DNA of 21,810 nt from a virus, in IMG/VR virus record IMGVR_UViG_3300001750_000008, positions 25,816 to 47,625 of that record; one strand, given 5' to 3'. Shown piece after piece: positions 1,556 to 14,241 of the stretch; within the stretch, counting starts at the first letter, position 1; every line of letters starts with the position of its first letter. The position numbers and the translations under genes were made by a program. The notes under the pieces are model-generated. The model did no database searches and had not been told where the DNA came from. It worked only from the letters and a program-made list of their open reading frames with translations.

Positions 1556-1753
1556 TTAGGCTGCTTTTGGTCTCAGCAGTTCTTCAAAGGTAACTTCACC
1601 GTTTGTGGCTTTTTCAATAGCGTCCGCAACTTCAGGGGATGGGCGGCGGTTACCATTACAAATTTGCGAAATAAAACCTGCTGAAGCTCTAACTTTTTTT
1701 GCGATGTCTTTCTGTCTGGTTTTTGTTTTTTTGCAATATTCTGATAGTTCCAT
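1556..1753 (-). CDS. Cro/C1-type HTH regulator (65 aa)
   Basis: This is a small Xre-family protein. Residues about 15-50 (KDIAKKVRASAGFISQICNG, then NRRPSPEVADAIEKAT) make a classic phage Cro/YdaS-like helix-turn-helix, and the tail GEVTFEELLRPKAA is typical of such short regulators. The ATG at 1753 is preferred. An upstream ATG at 1771 would add LIIII and would overlap the operator. No Shine-Dalgarno is present. The predicted promoter (1762-1790) puts the start site within about 3 nt of the ATG, so the message may be leaderless, as lambda cI is from PRM. It is transcribed divergently from the other HTH gene (1813) across a 59-bp region with two operators. Whether it plays the Cro or the CI role cannot be told from sequence. 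Confidence 0.85.
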   Translation of the reverse strand: MELSEYCKKTKTRQKDIAKKVRASAGFISQICNGNRRPSPEVADAIEKATNGEVTFEELLRPKAA

Positions 1754-1761
1754 AATGATTA

Positions 1762-1790
1762 TAATTAACATTATGCTAATTTAATGTCAA
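1762..1790 (-). promoter_or_regulatory. Leftward immunity promoter overlapping an operator
   Basis: On the minus strand, a perfect TTGACA (1785-1790) is separated by 17 nt from TAATTA (1762-1767). The operator at 1765-1779 covers the spacer and -10. The predicted start site is at about 1755, next to the ATG at 1753, implying a leaderless transcript. Confidence 0.6.
1765..1779. promoter_or_regulatory. Immunity operator 1 (TTAACATTATGCTAA)
   Basis: Near-perfect 15-bp dyad: the left half TTAACAT matches the reverse complement of ATGCTAA at 6 of 7 positions around a central T. It is one of four copies in the window and covers the leftward promoter. Its right half with flanking bases (TGCTAATTT) also reads as an extended -10 for the rightward gene. 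Confidence 0.75.
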
Positions 1791-1812: not shown

Positions 1813-2343
1813 ATGAGAAAAGAACATCAAGAGGTGTTTTGGAATAATATTGAAAAAGAATTTAAGAAATCCGGATTGTCGCAAAAAGAATTCGCAAAAA
1901 TATTGAATATTACACCGGCATATTTAAACGGCCTTCTTAAACAAAACAGGTCTGGTGAGCGAAAATTTATTCAAATATGTGATAGCCTAAACAAAGATTA
2001 TAAGGAAATGTTGGGTATTATTGATCATGATACAAAGCAGAAAAATCGTGACATCAAAAAAAAATATAAGTTGCAACCGGAAAATAAAACATTAAATTAT
2101 GGGAACAACAAAGGGGGTGATAGAAGCCTTATGAGTTCCGAAGAAGCCAAAGAAATTTTGTCTGAGATCCGAGAGTTAAATAAAAAAATGGAAAAAACCA
2201 ATGATAGGTTGTGGGGTTTGAATGATAAGATCGACAGCCTTGACAAAAGAACCACTGAACTGGAAAGGGCATTAAAAGAGCCCGACCTCTCCGAGGAGGA
2301 GAGGGAAAACGAGATCGATACCAAGAAAAGTACGGCATATTAG
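1813..2343 (+). CDS. HTH phage repressor with coiled coil, probably the 5' part of a split gene
   Basis: Residues about 10-60 form an Xre-type helix-turn-helix (GLSQKEFAKILNITPAYLNG), followed by a basic linker and a long charged helical region (about 108-170, heptad-like IRELNKKMEKTNDRLWGLND) that should form a coiled-coil oligomerisation domain. No Shine-Dalgarno is seen, and the ATG abuts operator 2. The reading frame ends at 2343, but the next frame, open from 2259, continues with protein-like sequence (YQEKYGILDLNKLAQEIAET) straight into the PAS-like ORF that has its first ATG at 2391. The intact ancestor was therefore probably one HTH-coiled coil-PAS-like protein of about 300 residues. 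A mutation, a sequencing error or a recoding event may explain the split. As the larger HTH protein facing the early genes, it is the better candidate for lysogenic repressor. Confidence 0.75.
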   Translation: MRKEHQEVFWNNIEKEFKKSGLSQKEFAKILNITPAYLNGLLKQNRSGERKFIQICDSLNKDYKEMLGIIDHDTKQKNRDIKKKYKLQPENKTLNYGNNKGGDRSLMSSEEAKEILSEIRELNKKMEKTNDRLWGLNDKIDSLDKRTTELERALKEPDLSEEERENEIDTKKSTAY

Positions 2344-4504: not shown

Positions 4505-4574
4505 TTATTTTCCCCTTTTTTCAGCATTCCCTCACCGGTAACAAACTCAAAAGCAAATATCAACATTTAAAAAA

Positions 4575-4589
4575 ATTACACTATGCTAA
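4575..4589. promoter_or_regulatory. Early-region operator 3 (ATTACACTATGCTAA)
   Basis: Third copy of the immunity operator, lying upstream of the -35 of the early promoter. It shares ACACTATGCTAAT with operator 4, 34 bp away. Confidence 0.7.
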
Positions 4590-4597
4590 TTTTTATC

Positions 4598-4626
4598 TTG
4601 ACATAAAATTTACACTATGCTAATTT
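4598..4626 (+). promoter_or_regulatory. Early rightward promoter
   Basis: Perfect -35 TTGACA (4598-4603), 17-nt spacer, and TAATTT (4621-4626) preceded by TGC, forming an extended -10. Operator 4 covers the spacer and -10, and operator 3 lies upstream of the -35. This is the obvious repressed early promoter feeding the tRNA and the recombination operon. Confidence 0.8.
4609..4623. promoter_or_regulatory. Early-region operator 4 (TTTACACTATGCTAA)
   Basis: Fourth operator copy, overlapping the spacer and extended -10 of the early promoter, so a bound repressor would exclude RNA polymerase. Confidence 0.75.
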
Positions 4627-4768
4627 TGTAACCGAACCAACACTAACCCCACCGCTAATGTGCGACGGGTTGGTGAGAAAGCCCTAAATAATCTTTCCCG
4701 GCTGGACAAATGGTCGCAGCGACTGAGCGAAGGGTTAACGGGCAAAAAGATAGTGCAGCAAGTAATTT
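4627..4768 (+). other. 142-nt untranslated early leader
   Basis: No gene is seen between the early promoter and the tRNA. The stretch has some self-complementarity (ACCAAC 4636-4641 with GTTGGT 4669-4674, and a GTCG-CAG-CGAC hairpin just downstream). It would be the 5' leader of the early transcript and the substrate from which the tRNA 5' end is cut. An antitermination role is possible but has no visible signature. Confidence 0.4.
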
Positions 4769-4842
4769 CGCGGGAAGGTCGGGTGGCCAGCTTGGGCTCA
4801 TAACCCAGGAATTTCCGGGTTCGATTCCCGGTCCCGCAACCA
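4769..4842 (+). tRNA. tRNA-Met(CAT), initiator-like, with shortened D arm
   Basis: A 74-nt cloverleaf with encoded CCA. The 7-nt acceptor strands CGCGGGA and TCCCGCA pair except for C1-A72. That mismatch, together with three G-C pairs next to the CAT anticodon loop (GGG-CTCATAA-CCC), is the hallmark of bacterial initiator tRNA-fMet. The T arm is regular (CCGGG-TTCGATT-CCCGG). The D arm is abnormal: GGTC and GGCC pair around a loop of only 4 nt, and the variable loop is 6 nt, so the molecule may be degenerate or specialised. It lies in the leader of the early transcript, 142 nt after the promoter. It could be a functional phage initiator tRNA, a decoy, or a decaying copy. Confidence 0.8.
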
Positions 4843-4867: not shown

Positions 4868-4975
4868 ATGTATCGCAGGTTTTTGAAAAATTTGTCCAAT
4901 GTGCTGGTCATGGCTGCTTTTAGTTTTTTAATGCTTTGGCTGATTTACGAATTTTTAACGGCAATAGGGAGGTAA
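4868..4975 (+). CDS. Small single-span membrane protein (35 aa)
   Basis: ATG at 4868 opens a 35-residue frame: basic N-terminus (MYRRFLKNLSN), then one hydrophobic helix (VLVMAAFSFLMLWLIYEFL), ending TAIGR. It stops 3 bp before the next gene's ATG, and its last codons contain the GGGAGG ribosome-binding site of that gene, suggesting translational coupling. A weak AGG-rich site precedes it. It lies first in the early operon, directly after the tRNA. The size and single helix are typical of phage regulatory or exclusion micropeptides. No family is recognised. Confidence 0.5.
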   Translation: MYRRFLKNLSNVLVMAAFSFLMLWLIYEFLTAIGR

Positions 4976-4978
4976 TGT

Positions 4979-5974
4979 ATGAAGCAAATATCTGTACCCG
5001 AGGAATTTGAAAAATTAAAACAAGCCGGTGCCAACATTCTGTTGAACACCGAGCGTGTGGAAACCCTTTCCCAGTTCCACAAACCCGTCATTGACAAGGT
5101 TCATCTCAGTTCCAACCCGAAAGACGGGGATGTATACCCGGCAAAAAGTGCGGACAAAGATGAACCCTCAAGATTCAGATTAACTCATCAGGCATTGCTT
5201 AAACTTTCTGCGGCTGCGGTCGTTGAGTGGCACCCCATAGAATCCAAAAGAATTGACAGGATGAATGACCGCAATTACGTGGCATATCGCGCAGTCGGCG
5301 GCGTCCGTAGGCCTGATGGTACTCCTATCTTTTTCAGTTCCGAGTATGATCTGGATTTCGAGGTGGTCGAAGAAGAACTCCGAGAATTGTACCATAACAA
5401 ATGCAAAACCTGGAACAAACCGGAAGATCACAAAAAAAATTACATTGAAAGCAGTGTCAAACGGGATCTGATTTCAAAACGAAAACACAAGGTCAAGCTG
5501 TGCGAGGCCGGTGCAAAAAACCGTGTCATCCGGAAAAGCTTAGGCATCAAGAACGATTATACGAAAGCAGAGCTTGAAAAGCCCTTCATCATTGTTCGCA
5601 TGGAATTAAGGCCCGATTATAACGACCCTGAAGTTAAGAGACAACTGGTGGAAGCTGCTATCAAATCACAGACCAGAATATTCGGGCAAAGTCAATTAAC
5701 TCAACCCCTAATCGAATTACCGCCTTCAGAATACCATGAAGTCCTCCAGGATCCCGATGATTCTGAACCGGATCCGGAACCCGAAGAAGAACCGCCCCCG
5801 GATTTTGAGAATGCTGATGGAAAAAGCCAGATCAAGATGCTCAAAAATATGGCTAAAAAGAAAGGGTATGATCTGAAGCAGCTAAAAGCACCGTTGAAAG
5901 ATTTCAGCGAGAAACACCGGATAGATTTCTGGAATGTTCTTGTCGATATGAAGGATGATGACATTCCCTATTAA
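4979..5974 (+). CDS. Putative single-strand annealing recombinase with SSB-like C-terminal tip (331 aa)
   Basis: Strong GGGAGG lies 6 nt before the ATG. The core, about residues 30-230, includes AGAKNRVIRKSLGI (177-190) and YTKAELEKPFIIVR, the 'AKNRAIRK.LG...YT..EL.KPF' pattern I associate with phage annealing proteins of the RecT/Erf/Rad52 functional class. A proline-glutamate-rich linker (about 253-275) leads to a small helical C-terminal domain (QIKMLKNMAKKKGYDLKQLK) and the terminus MKDDDIPY. E. coli SSB ends in DDDIPF, the tip that recruits many repair proteins, so this annealase may mimic SSB. It is followed 11 bp later by SbcD and SbcC homologues, the usual exonuclease partners of an annealase. 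The annealase call is by pattern and context, not a confirmed family hit. Confidence 0.6.
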   Translation: MKQISVPEEFEKLKQAGANILLNTERVETLSQFHKPVIDKVHLSSNPKDGDVYPAKSADKDEPSRFRLTHQALLKLSAAAVVEWHPIESKRIDRMNDRNYVAYRAVGGVRRPDGTPIFFSSEYDLDFEVVEEELRELYHNKCKTWNKPEDHKKNYIESSVKRDLISKRKHKVKLCEAGAKNRVIRKSLGIKNDYTKAELEKPFIIVRMELRPDYNDPEVKRQLVEAAIKSQTRIFGQSQLTQPLIELPPSEYHEVLQDPDDSEPDPEPEEEPPPDFENADGKSQIKMLKNMAKKKGYDLKQLKAPLKDFSEKHRIDFWNVLVDMKDDDIPY

Positions 5975-5985
5975 GGAGGTGACAA

Positions 5986-7221
5986 ATGAAAATATTACAT
6001 CTTGCGGATATTCACACAGATGATCAGGACTTACCAGAGATTCAAAAATGTTTGGACTTCACTATTAAAACGGCAGAGGAAGAAAGGCCGGATCTGATCG
6101 TTAATGCCGGCGACACGTTTAACTCAAGGTCGGTTAAGATGGATTCGGCCTCGGCAAAATATATATGTCGGGCGTTCAAAGAGCTGGCTGATATCGCACC
6201 GGTGGCGATCGTCACGGGTACACCGAGCCATGACGGTCATGCAGTCGAAATCATTTGGCGAATCGGGGCTACCCATAATATCTGGGTATCCACTCTCCCT
6301 GAACAGATATGTTTATTGGATGGTCACCTAATCCAATTTCAGAGCGATGTTGATTATTACGATTCTATAGACAGCACTGATGCTGTGATCAGTCTGGTCC
6401 CGACACCCACCAAAAAGTATTTTGAGTCCGATGGAAATATAAATCAGACCGATATCGATATCAGTAATGAAATGGCAACGATGTTCGCGGGATTTGGAGC
6501 AAGTGCCAAAGAATATCCCGGCCCTCACATTATGGTCGGTCATTTCCCCGTCGGCGGCGCTTATGTATCTGGCACACAGCAGTTGACCGGTGTGGACATT
6601 GAAATGACTCGGGAACAGATATCCCTTGCTGAAGCCGATGTGGTCTGTCTGGGGCACATCCATTATCACCAACAATTCGGAGATAATATTTTTTATTCCG
6701 GATCCATTTACAGGAAAGATTTTGGAGAGCTTGAGGAAAAGGGATTTTACATCCATGAAATTGAGAAAATTCCGGAAGATCATGAATATAAGCTCATATC
6801 ACGCTTTGTCGAAACACCGTCCCGGAAGCTGATAAAAGACAGTGTTGATCTGTGCGCGGGTGTTGATGAATCGGTTTACATCCTTTCCGAAGCCATTGCC
6901 CGTTCACCAGAAGAAATCAAGGATGCTTTTGTGCGGTTGGAATTCAAGGTTTACCAGGATGAAGCTGAAGCGATCGACAAAGAGCAGATCACAGGATTCT
7001 ACAAGCTGGTCGGCGCTGCTGATGTGGATATTAAAATAATTCGCGTACCCAGGGTGAATGTCAGGAGCGAGAAAATACTATCCCTCACGACCCTGCGTGA
7101 AAAGCTGATTGAAAGAGCTGCTCTCATCGATGAAAAAGTACCGGAGAAAGTACTCGAAAAAGCAGACATCCTGGAGGAATACAACCCTGACGAAATAATC
7201 AAAACAATCGCAAGGATATAA
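5986..7221 (+). CDS. sbcD: SbcD/Mre11/gp47-like nuclease subunit (411 aa)
   Basis: Metallophosphoesterase subunit of an SbcCD/Rad50-Mre11/T4 gp46-47-type nuclease, which processes DNA ends and hairpins for recombination-dependent repair and replication. Metal motifs are in order: D8-x-H10 in LADIHTDD, G42-D43-T-F, G78-T-P-S-H82-D83, G185-H186-F, and G223-H224-I-H226. The third motif is normally GNHD; here asparagine is replaced in GTPSHD, a variant I recall from phage gp47 relatives. AAGGAGGTGACAA gives an excellent ribosome-binding site. The C-terminal third is the capping region that contacts the partner ATPase. The stop is 2 bp before the SbcC start, so the two are translationally coupled. 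E. coli SbcD is about 400 aa, matching the length. Confidence 0.93.
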   Translation: MKILHLADIHTDDQDLPEIQKCLDFTIKTAEEERPDLIVNAGDTFNSRSVKMDSASAKYICRAFKELADIAPVAIVTGTPSHDGHAVEIIWRIGATHNIWVSTLPEQICLLDGHLIQFQSDVDYYDSIDSTDAVISLVPTPTKKYFESDGNINQTDIDISNEMATMFAGFGASAKEYPGPHIMVGHFPVGGAYVSGTQQLTGVDIEMTREQISLAEADVVCLGHIHYHQQFGDNIFYSGSIYRKDFGELEEKGFYIHEIEKIPEDHEYKLISRFVETPSRKLIKDSVDLCAGVDESVYILSEAIARSPEEIKDAFVRLEFKVYQDEAEAIDKEQITGFYKLVGAADVDIKIIRVPRVNVRSEKILSLTTLREKLIERAALIDEKVPEKVLEKADILEEYNPDEIIKTIARI

Positions 7222-7223
7222 CC

Positions 7224-9521
7224 ATGGAAATTAAACGCTTAAAATTACGGGGATTCATCGGAATTAAGGAGGGTTTGGGCCTTGATGAAGTTGAGCTCGA
7301 CCTGTCATCCATAAACGGACTTGTAGCCTTTGACGGCCCTAACGGTCATGGAAAAACAACGATTCTTGATAACCTGCATCCTTACCGGACTTTAGCAAGT
7401 CGGAGTAAATCACTCCAGCACCATGTATTTTTGCGGGATTCAAGCAAGGAATTAATATTCACTTTCCAGGGTGATGAATACAGGACTCTGATCAAGATTG
7501 ATTCCGAATCCGAACGGTCGGAAGGATTCGTGTGGAAAAACGGCGAACCCATGACCAACGGCAAAGTGTCTCGGTATGATAGTTACATCGCTAATCTGTT
7601 CGGATCTCAGAACCTGTTTTTCAGTTCTGTTTTCTGCGCTCAGAATTCCGAGAAAATTTCAGACCTGACAACCGGGCAACTAAAAAAACTGTTTTCCGAG
7701 TTCCTGCGCCTGGATCAATTAATCGAACATGAGAAGACTTCTAACCAGGCCGGTAATATTATTTCCGGAAAGGTTGAAACCATTGAGCGTGAAATTCAGG
7801 AATTACGCGGGAAACTGAAGGACAAGGATGTGGTGACTCAGGATCTTGAAAGTAAAAAAAATAATCTTAAGAAGGCGGAAAATGACCTGGTCATTACCCA
7901 GGAAGCTCTGAAACAGAATGACGACAAGCTCATTAAATCCCGGGAACTGTTAACTGAAAATAATCACACATTAATAAAAATCAAAGATCTGGAAATAGAC
8001 AGAGAACGACTGGCCATCGAGTTGGGAACAGATCGGCTCCAGGTTGAAAAGCAGTTAAAGGAATTTCGGGAGAAATTAACCGGTATCAATTCGGACATCA
8101 AAGATTGTGAAGCCCTGCTCGAAAACGAATGCGAGATCAGGAACGCTGCCGCGCTTGAAAAAAAATTGAGTATCCAGGTTGATGAAAAAACCAACGAGCT
8201 CGATATAGTCCGGGAAGAACTTTCAAAGTCTACTTCTGAACTATCCGTCCACTCACAAGCACTGACAAAACTCACAGCATATCATGCAAGCCTGGTAACT
8301 GATAATAAAACTCTGATTATCGAAGGCAAGATAAAAGCCCGTCGGGATAGAATGTCTGCACTCGAAAAGAAGGCCCGGTCCTGCAAATCAAAAACATGCA
8401 GTTTTATTGTTGGAGCGCTGGAAGCTCAAGAACAATTACCGGAATTACAGAAAAAACTAGCGGAACAAAAAGCGGAGACAGCAAAGCTCAGAACTGAATG
8501 TGAAGAAAAAAGCAATACAATCAATGCTGAAATCGACAATATAAAAAAGTATGCTGAGGCAAAAGCCAGGCAACGTGATGACCTGTCATCAAACATCGTT
8601 CGATTAAAAAACGAAATCGGGAAACTCAAAAACCTGACTGACGATCTGCCTAAGATCGAAGGCGCTTCATCTAAAAAAACTGAACTTAAAAAACAGAAAG
8701 AATATGTTACCAGCGAAGGGACAAAAGCAAGGGATCAATGGAATTCAAGGGAGGAACCGAAGTTACAGCAGATTGAGCAGCTCAGAAAGAAAATTAATGA
8801 ACTGGATAAGACTGTTGACGATAAGATATCAGAGCGCATTGCTGACATTGAAGACAAAATATATGATCTTAATTCGGAAAAAGCGAGTCTCGAAAAAGTC
8901 AAATCTCTCATCAGAATTGAAATCATTTCCCTGGAGAACGATCTTGAATCGATTGAGCTGACCGAAGAAAAGCTGAAAAGTCTTGAAACCAAAAAACAGA
9001 TTTTACTCGACCATGCTGCAGACTGGAGATACCTTAAAGATGCATGCTCAAAAGACGGTCTCCGGGCCCTAGAAATCGATTCAGTCGCACCGGTCATCAC
9101 CGGTTATGCCAATGACCTGCTCATCAATACCTTTGGTCCTGCCCATACCGTTAAATTCAGAACACAGGATGAAGAAACGCTGAGGGAGATCTTTGATATC
9201 CTGGTGATCCGCGAGGACGGTTCGGAGGTTCTTCTTGACGATCTGTCCGGCGGTGAAAAGGTATGGAGTCTCAAAGCGCTGCGCCTGGCCATGACACTGA
9301 TAGCCAAAGAAAAATCGGGTAAGAACTTTCTTACTGCCCTGGCCGATGAAGAAGACGGCTCTCTGGATGTCGAGAATGCCAGGAACTTCATTTCTCTTTA
9401 TCGTGCTTTCATGAAGTCCGGAGAATTCAATACTATTTATTACATCTCTCACAAACCAGATTGTGTGAGCATGGCTGATCACGTTCTACATTTCAATAAT
9501 AATGGAATCACAATTCATTAA
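7224..9521 (+). CDS. sbcC: SbcC/Rad50/gp46-like ATPase subunit (765 aa)
   Basis: SMC-family ATPase that partners SbcD. Walker A is GPNGHGKTT (38-46), the ABC signature is LSGGEK (674-679), Walker B is FLTALADE (702-709), the D-loop is SLD (713-715), and the switch histidine is H743 in ISHKPD. Between about 160 and 610 are two long antiparallel coiled coils. At their apex lie C387 and C392 (SCKSKTC), where Rad50/SbcC proteins carry a CxxC zinc hook. The CX4C spacing here is unusual. At 765 residues it is shorter than E. coli SbcC (about 1048) and longer than T4 gp46 (560), so the arms are of middle length. It probably loads ends for annealing by the protein encoded at 4979. Confidence 0.93.
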   Translation: MEIKRLKLRGFIGIKEGLGLDEVELDLSSINGLVAFDGPNGHGKTTILDNLHPYRTLASRSKSLQHHVFLRDSSKELIFTFQGDEYRTLIKIDSESERSEGFVWKNGEPMTNGKVSRYDSYIANLFGSQNLFFSSVFCAQNSEKISDLTTGQLKKLFSEFLRLDQLIEHEKTSNQAGNIISGKVETIEREIQELRGKLKDKDVVTQDLESKKNNLKKAENDLVITQEALKQNDDKLIKSRELLTENNHTLIKIKDLEIDRERLAIELGTDRLQVEKQLKEFREKLTGINSDIKDCEALLENECEIRNAAALEKKLSIQVDEKTNELDIVREELSKSTSELSVHSQALTKLTAYHASLVTDNKTLIIEGKIKARRDRMSALEKKARSCKSKTCSFIVGALEAQEQLPELQKKLAEQKAETAKLRTECEEKSNTINAEIDNIKKYAEAKARQRDDLSSNIVRLKNEIGKLKNLTDDLPKIEGASSKKTELKKQKEYVTSEGTKARDQWNSREEPKLQQIEQLRKKINELDKTVDDKISERIADIEDKIYDLNSEKASLEKVKSLIRIEIISLENDLESIELTEEKLKSLETKKQILLDHAADWRYLKDACSKDGLRALEIDSVAPVITGYANDLLINTFGPAHTVKFRTQDEETLREIFDILVIREDGSEVLLDDLSGGEKVWSLKALRLAMTLIAKEKSGKNFLTALADEEDGSLDVENARNFISLYRAFMKSGEFNTIYYISHKPDCVSMADHVLHFNNNGITIH

Positions 9522-12894: not shown

Positions 12895-12959
12895 CCATGC
12901 TCTTGACAAATTCCTCACATAATTATACCCCTGTCCCAATACAAATGGGAGGGGTTACT

Positions 12960-14132
12960 ATGAAGGGAAACATCTATTCGGATCAAAAGTGTCTGATATG
13001 TAACTGTAATTTCAAGCATTTTGAACCAAAAGGACTGTGGTGTCCGAATCACCCTGAAAGCCAGCCCACCAGATTAAAAGTCATTTTTGGCGAACTCACC
13101 AAACGATTCAAATCATATGATCAAGCATACCGGTTTTTAACAGGAGTCCGATATGAAACAGACATGGGCAAGTTTGATATCAGGGATTATCAGCGTGACA
13201 ATCCATTGGGTTTTGAAACCCTTGTAAAAAAGTTCATCAAAAGTAAGCGCAAACTTAAAGCGGTGAAAGAGTATGAAAGGCGTCTCGGTTTCGGTGTAAA
13301 TAAGTGGCACAACCGGATTATAAAAGAGATCGGTTTTGCTGAAATCCAGGAACTTTTAAATGAACTGGATGATCAGGGAAAATCCACTAAGTATATATAT
13401 GACATTCTATCCTGTCTGAAAATGTTCTGGAATTGGGCTATTAAATGCGAAGATACCGTTTCAAACATACAAACACGTCTGAGAGTGCCTAACTTTCCTG
13501 ATTGGGATAATACTATGGCCTTCAGGAAAATATTAACCAAAGATGAGCAAATAGCTGTACTCGATGAAGTCAAAAAATTGACATGGGGTATCAATCCAAG
13601 AATATACATTGGAATACTGTTTCTATCGACTTATATCAATATCAGACCGAATGAACTTAAAAATATCCAGGAAAAGCATATTGAACTGGAAAACAGACGA
13701 ATCTTAATCCCTCATCCCAAAGAAGGCTCACCAAAATATGTATACCTCATTGATGAAGATGCTGAGTTGTTACAATCAATGCCCCGAGGTTTTCCTGAAC
13801 TATATTTTTTCAGGCATATCAAATACAACCAGGGAGCCATTGCCGGTCAAAGGTTTGGTCGGGATCTGATGTCTGTCTGGTGGAAAAGAGCCTGCGAAAA
13901 TCTCAACATTGAAGGAGTACCTCTCTACCCGGGAACCAGGCACACCACAGCAGTTGCTCAACGTGAAAATCACTCACCTGAAGCTATTAAACGCAGTATG
14001 GGAACGAAAACAAATAAGGCTTTTGAAAGGTATTTACAGGTGAGCGGTAATGAGTTGAGAAAGATGTATCACACCTCAAGAGCAAAAATTATTAAAATGG
14101 ATAAAATTAAAAAGGAAGGGCCAGACGATTAA
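12960..14132 (+). CDS. int: Tyrosine recombinase/phage integrase (390 aa)
   Basis: The start at 12960 is chosen because GGGAGGGG lies 6 nt upstream; an in-frame ATG at 12897 overlaps a TTGACA element and lacks such a site. The N-terminus is a zinc-ribbon-like segment (C11, C14, C16, C28, H31), followed by an SAM-like core-binding domain (about 80-185) and the catalytic domain. Catalytic residues visible are R229 (INIRPNEL), R327 (GTRHTT) and nucleophile Y358 (FERYL). The usual HxxR histidine is P324, and the H/W position reads threonine/lysine (MGTKTNKAF), so the active site is atypical. attP lies 7-177 bp downstream. The protein integrates the phage at a tRNA 3' end. Confidence 0.92.
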   Translation: MKGNIYSDQKCLICNCNFKHFEPKGLWCPNHPESQPTRLKVIFGELTKRFKSYDQAYRFLTGVRYETDMGKFDIRDYQRDNPLGFETLVKKFIKSKRKLKAVKEYERRLGFGVNKWHNRIIKEIGFAEIQELLNELDDQGKSTKYIYDILSCLKMFWNWAIKCEDTVSNIQTRLRVPNFPDWDNTMAFRKILTKDEQIAVLDEVKKLTWGINPRIYIGILFLSTYINIRPNELKNIQEKHIELENRRILIPHPKEGSPKYVYLIDEDAELLQSMPRGFPELYFFRHIKYNQGAIAGQRFGRDLMSVWWKRACENLNIEGVPLYPGTRHTTAVAQRENHSPEAIKRSMGTKTNKAFERYLQVSGNELRKMYHTSRAKIIKMDKIKKEGPDD

Positions 14133-14207: not shown

Positions 14208-14241
14208 TGGTGCCCGGGACGAGAATTGAACTCGGCCTGTC
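14208..14241 (-). other. attP core: 34-nt tRNA 3'-end fragment
   Basis: Read on the minus strand, this is the 3' part of a tRNA: T arm CGAG-TTCAATT-CTCG, acceptor strand CCCGGGC, discriminator A and CCA. No anticodon or D arm follows at 14242 and beyond, so it is not a whole gene. Phages that integrate into tRNA genes carry exactly such a fragment to restore the gene after crossover. The isotype cannot be read from this piece; the host gene should start GCCCGGG. Confidence 0.85.

Follow-up and report, generated by a model that had tools for sequence, protein, structure and literature searches.

A compact initiator-type tRNA gene in the early leader of a predicted temperate podovirus

The window analysed here, 21,810 nucleotides in length (positions 25,816 to 47,625), is the right-hand part of the 47,625-bp virus record IMGVR_UViG_3300001750_000008. 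Because the ends of the record overlap by 3,631 bp with 99.5% identity, the genome has a size of about 44.0 kb and is probably complete. The terminase is 60% identical to that of vir555 (BK063671) and 41% identical to that of epsilon15, and the phage is predicted to be a temperate podovirus of about 44 kb with an epsilon15-type terminase. The overlapping ends differ at 19 positions, all of them between 18269 and 18386 of the window (118 bp, in the gene of a 715-aa tail-region protein) and mostly three nucleotides apart, a pattern that resembles local variation between strains in a gene for a tail or fibre. The features on which the analysis is built are collected in Table 1.

Table 1. Features of the window, with positions counted from its first nucleotide
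Feature	Position	Strand	Evidence or remark
Small HTH regulator, transcriptional repressor PHROG 35	1556..1771	-	PHROG
HTH_3 regulator, divergent from the 1556..1771 gene	1813..2343	+	Domain and PHROG match
Operator-like repeat copy 1, TTACACTATGCTAATTTT	4571..4593	+	Similar sites at 1766-1811
Operator-like repeat copy 2, TTACACTATGCTAATTTT	4605..4627	+	Overlaps promoter-like TTGACA (4598-4603) / TGCTAATTT
Initiator-type tRNA, anticodon CAT, 74 nt including encoded CCA	4769..4842	+	ARAGORN; RF00005, 26.9 bits; RNAfold; pairing check
Mini D arm, stem GGTC/GGCC, 4-nt loop GGGT	4777..4788	+	RNAfold, pairing check; same layout with different stem letters in L140
6-bp anticodon stem (C26-G44 plus TTGGG/CCCAG), loop CTCATAA	4791..4809	+	RNAfold, stem-length comparison
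35-aa ORF with one hydrophobic stretch, first after the tRNA	4868..4975	+	By reading; without PHROG match
331-aa early protein, PHROG 13782 (function unknown)	4979..5974	+	PHROG
SbcD-type phosphoesterase (Metallophos)	5986..7221	+	Domain match
SbcC-like ATPase, PHROG 77	7224..9521	+	PHROG
Tyrosine integrase, PHROG 1	12897..14132	+	PHROG
Putative attP, resembling the 3' part (T arm, acceptor strand, ACCA) of another tRNA	14209..14236	-	By reading

The tRNA gene stands between operator- and promoter-like DNA and the first early ORFs, in the same orientation. Both copies of the TTACACTATGCTAATTTT repeat overlap a sequence resembling a TTGACA-17-TGCTAATTT promoter, which was recognised by eye about 140 bp upstream of the tRNA and is not among the listings of a consensus promoter scan. 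The preliminary description had placed the tRNA in the early leader, directly behind a repressor-controlled early promoter. This placement is borne out by the repeats at 4571-4627 and by two imperfect copies, with a shared repeat of 14-17 bp, in the intergenic region between repressor and cro (1766-1811); the recurrence supports the reading of the leader as repressor-controlled, with a repressor presumably binding the repeats. The operon also contains a phage-encoded SbcD-/SbcC-type pair (5986-9521). A search of IMG/VR found no relatives of the 331-aa protein or of the SbcC-like protein and one weak match to the SbcD-type protein, and PADLOC returned nothing for the neighbouring genes beyond weak similarities to ATPases, helicases and nucleases. 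In 30 records with related terminases, many of them fragments, 29 were without a tRNA at an E value of 0.1 and the sole tRNA found was not an initiator; the tRNA gene is thus not conserved with the structural module. The preliminary description had named a lack of the initiator features in related phages as an argument against its interpretation. This argument applies in part, namely to the terminase relatives; relatives of the early module were not found.

The tRNA at 4769-4842 on the plus strand was called as tRNA-Met with the anticodon CAT and is the sole ARAGORN call in the window; the record as a whole gave no further call. By direct reading and a pairing check, the acceptor has a C1×A72 mismatch, six paired positions, A73 and an encoded CCA, the T arm reads CCGGG-TTCGATT-CCCGG, and every stem outside the D arm is intact. 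RNAfold returned exactly the cloverleaf as read, at -32 kcal/mol. The Rfam tRNA model RF00005 scored 26.9 bits (E 4e-5), just below its gathering score of 29 bits, and a pattern for initiators matched once in the window and in none of 100 shuffles. Taken together, the ARAGORN call, the RF00005 E value, the predicted fold and the shuffles indicate a real tRNA-type sequence and no chance hairpin. A 47-codon open frame (4660-4803) reaches into the tRNA, where the TAA of the anticodon loop ends it; since it matched no PHROG and a ribosome-binding site was not seen, it was taken as non-coding.

The initiator identity proposed in the preliminary description is supported. Besides the 1-72 mismatch, three G-C pairs close the loop end of the anticodon stem (GGG CTCATAA CCC), and position 11 is a purine opposite a pyrimidine at 24 (G11-C24), provided that the D stem is GGTC/GGCC. 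The GGG/CCC stem was found across viral loci in 86 of 121 distinct CAT tRNAs as against 17 of 737 other tRNAs. What departs from a bacterial initiator is the D arm, where U8, A14, G18 and G19 would be expected: the linker between acceptor and D stem is a single base, A8, residue 9 is absent and the loop is the 4-nt GGGT. Since A8 replaces U8 and residue 9 is missing, neither the canonical U8-A14 pair nor the usual set of core contacts can form. Three bases follow the D stem, and the last of them, C26, pairs with G44 and thereby lengthens the anticodon stem to 6 bp. Hairpins of 4 bp with a 4-nt loop arose in about 14% of shuffled D regions, so the mini D arm alone is weak evidence.

Several known tRNAs combine some of these features. 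The best-scoring Rfam family was tRNA-Sec (RF01852), probably because bacterial tRNA-Sec likewise has a 4-nt D loop, in which contacts between D loop and T loop remain possible (PMC7609411); its score of 28.5 bits lies well below the cut-off of 47. In contrast to tRNA-Sec, the window tRNA has no 8-bp acceptor, no 6-bp D stem, no long variable arm and a CAT instead of a UCA anticodon, and its letters are those of an initiator throughout. The tRNA-Pyl and the mammalian mitochondrial tRNA-Ser(UCN) (PMC7609411) share with it the single linker base, the small D loop and the 6-bp anticodon stem. However, the variable loop is 5-6 nt here and 3 nt in those tRNAs, the anticodon is CAT and the tRNA is a phage-encoded initiator; tRNA-Pyl itself is without G18 G19 and the TPsiC letters. 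The window tRNA therefore belongs with neither tRNA-Sec nor tRNA-Pyl.

The preliminary description had called the 4-nt D loop odd, and it proved to be so: a scan of viral contigs with a tighter pattern for short-D initiators found so short a version in just four contigs besides the window. Of these, L140 is informative, having the same 1-nt linker and 4-bp/4-nt D arm, with the loop CGGT. Its D stem reads AGGA/TCCT, so that three of the four pairs differ from those in the window while pairing is kept, and outside the tRNA no similarity between the two was detected at the nucleotide or protein level. The anticodon stem comprises 6 bp in the window and 8 bp in L140, whereas it exceeded 5 bp in none of 83 ordinary phage initiators. 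By reading, GG is retained in the mini loop of all five short-D tRNAs. The covariation of the D stem is suggestive rather than proof, because hairpins were frequent among the shuffles and L140 is a single comparison.

These comparisons bear on whether the tRNA is a decaying relic, that is, a captured host initiator whose D arm has been partly lost and which no longer functions. The loss is indeed limited to one region, the RF00005 score is sub-threshold, and initiator genes with damaged D arms were seen in several bacterial genomes (L169, L172, L178 and L180). On the other hand, the residual D arm re-pairs, the other stems are perfect, and L140 repeats the architecture with other D-stem letters, the anticodon stem being lengthened in both. 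Decay is accordingly regarded as rather unlikely, and the D-stem changes with pairing kept, together with the long anticodon stems, argue for a selected compact initiator instead. A scan of bacterial genomes for short-D initiators gave 13 matches, in 7 of which the D arm contains masked NN so that its length cannot be trusted; one further match (L171) is no tRNA, and the remaining ones resemble initiator genes of a host in which the D arm is cut short. One short-D initiator-like tRNA (L168:12858-12926) lies in a large tRNA array and was not called by ARAGORN.

Initiator tRNAs as such had been thought exceptional in phages, a view that the present searches do not support. A pattern of the form CGCGG...GGGCTCATAACCC...TTCRA, in which the D region was allowed to be no longer than usual, found initiator-type tRNAs in at least 119 IMG/VR contigs, many of which belong to large phages carrying arrays of tRNAs. 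Something like an ordinary initiator tRNA is contained in 395 annotated phage records, an impure list that includes other tRNAs and 3' halves. In at least 35 of the pattern-derived viral loci the initiator was the lone tRNA by ARAGORN or, in L057, was missed by it; some of these contigs may be host DNA wrongly classed as viral. The compact D arm is rare among these otherwise common phage initiators and occurs in a handful of unrelated phages. An open-access literature search found no phage initiator with a truncated D arm, which is weak evidence of absence. The tRNA-Met and tRNA-fMet genes of large phages (mycobacteriophages such as Ava3 and Drazdys, CcrColossus and Erwinia phages) resemble the window tRNA in being phage-encoded CAT tRNAs with an ordinary-initiator-like sequence. 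Their matches, however, span a D arm of ordinary length, and the two that were inspected both sit in tRNA arrays, whereas the window tRNA is the only one of its genome, combines a 4-nt D loop with a 6-bp anticodon stem and is sited in an early leader.

Lone initiators in early regions were found in at least four other phages, in the orders repressor - tRNA - SbcC-like - RecT (L077), tRNA - Sak4 (L092), integrase - repressor - cro-type - tRNA - early genes, among them a cytosine methylase (L126/L082) and small HTH - tRNA - DUF3310 - replication-type genes (L140). Early placement is no universal rule for lone phage initiators, as those of L101, L144 and L120 lie within head or tail modules. The position also raises the question whether the tRNA serves merely as a processing or regulatory element, in which cleavage by RNase P and at the 3' end would trim the early mRNA and the freed RNA itself would be irrelevant. 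Its co-oriented place ahead of the first early ORF would suit such a role, and the short-D tRNAs of L057 and L100 were likewise read as preceding a putative protease/capsid gene, whose product Pfam recognised in neither case. Processing, however, needs none of the initiator-specific C1×A72, GGG/CCC and CTCATAA, yet all three are kept, and this explanation appears unlikely.

The reading preferred here, with a probability of roughly one half, is that the tRNA is a working compact initiator, made early, that supplements or replaces the initiator of the host. In favour of this reading are the intact stems outside the D arm, the encoded CCA, the retained initiator letters, the parallel with L140 and the lone initiators in early regions of other phages; the lost core contacts, the RF00005 score below the cut-off and the lone initiators in head or tail modules speak against it. 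Upon infection or induction the early promoter would fire, and the tRNA would be cut out of the early transcript by RNase P and 3' nucleases. Charging by MetRS and formyltransferase would proceed by way of the normal acceptor and anticodon, and the charged tRNA would enter the P site of the 30S subunit. Through its GG the 4-nt D loop would dock on the T loop in the manner of tRNA-Sec, with the longer anticodon stem offsetting the shorter D arm. A working fold is plausible because the compact features are reported in tRNA-Pyl and mitochondrial tRNA-Ser(UCN) and D-T contacts with a 4-nt loop in tRNA-Sec (PMC7609411). A decoy, suggested in the preliminary description next to an effect on initiation, would act in another way, titrating MetRS, formyltransferase, IF2 or a host nuclease, so that host initiation is damped or host tRNA-fMet shielded. 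The weakened core with retained identity elements and the early placement could be expected of a decoy, but nothing among the features examined sets the window tRNA apart from a working one, and the product of a single gene would face competition from an abundant pool; the decoy is thus considered improbable.

The likely benefit of a working initiator would be that initiation is sustained when the host tRNA-fMet pool is limiting or is hit by tRNA-targeting defences. Phage tRNAs have been shown to evade such defences and, in principle, to rescue infection from them (PMC11555353, PMC10264068). According to the account of Winther and Gerdes 2011 given in PMC10264068, the enteric VapC cleaves initiator tRNA, and where VapC targets tRNA-fMet, phages generally avoid encoding it (PMC10264068). 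Given this avoidance and the standard anticodon loop, nothing points to escape from an anticodon nuclease, and escape from an enzyme recognising the D arm or elbow is no more than possible. The wider proposition of a class of compact initiators (1-nt linker, 4-bp/4-nt D arm, long anticodon stem) of more than one phage origin, which are made early, initiate and escape host enzymes reading the elbow or D arm, is doubtful at present. If the compact initiator does work, it would show how little of a D arm initiators need and which host enzymes read it. As initiators confer no codon-usage benefit, a lone early initiator also bears on why phages carry tRNAs.

A tRNA 3' end beside an integrase is the usual form of an attP and restores the host tRNA upon integration. 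Just 3' of the integrase of this phage lies what reads as such a piece (14209-14236; acceptor strand CCCGGGC), which gave a partial match (E 0.2) to an integrase-annotated sequence in a Microcystis phage and, being so short, was not recognised by Rfam. The combination of a temperate phage, a tyrosine integrase and a tRNA recalls the phages of tRNA-dependent lysogeny, whose attB lies in a tRNA gene of the same isotype that is not restored after integration (PMC10865867). The initiator might by analogy be an attachment site, or a substitute for a host tRNA split by integration (PMC10865867), and the integrase and tRNA-type attP candidate agree with some such role. That candidate, however, reads as the 3' end of another tRNA, long enough to restore that gene, and the initiator lies 8 kb from the integrase. 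If the piece is read correctly, the initiator is neither the attP nor a rescue tRNA of that kind (PMC10865867), and a role in lysogeny was judged highly improbable. Matches of 39 nt to the 3' half of an initiator tRNA were also observed at about 20 kb in the records of 39-kb Arthrobacter phages (Abidatro, Jamun and others), where they are possibly attachment sites.
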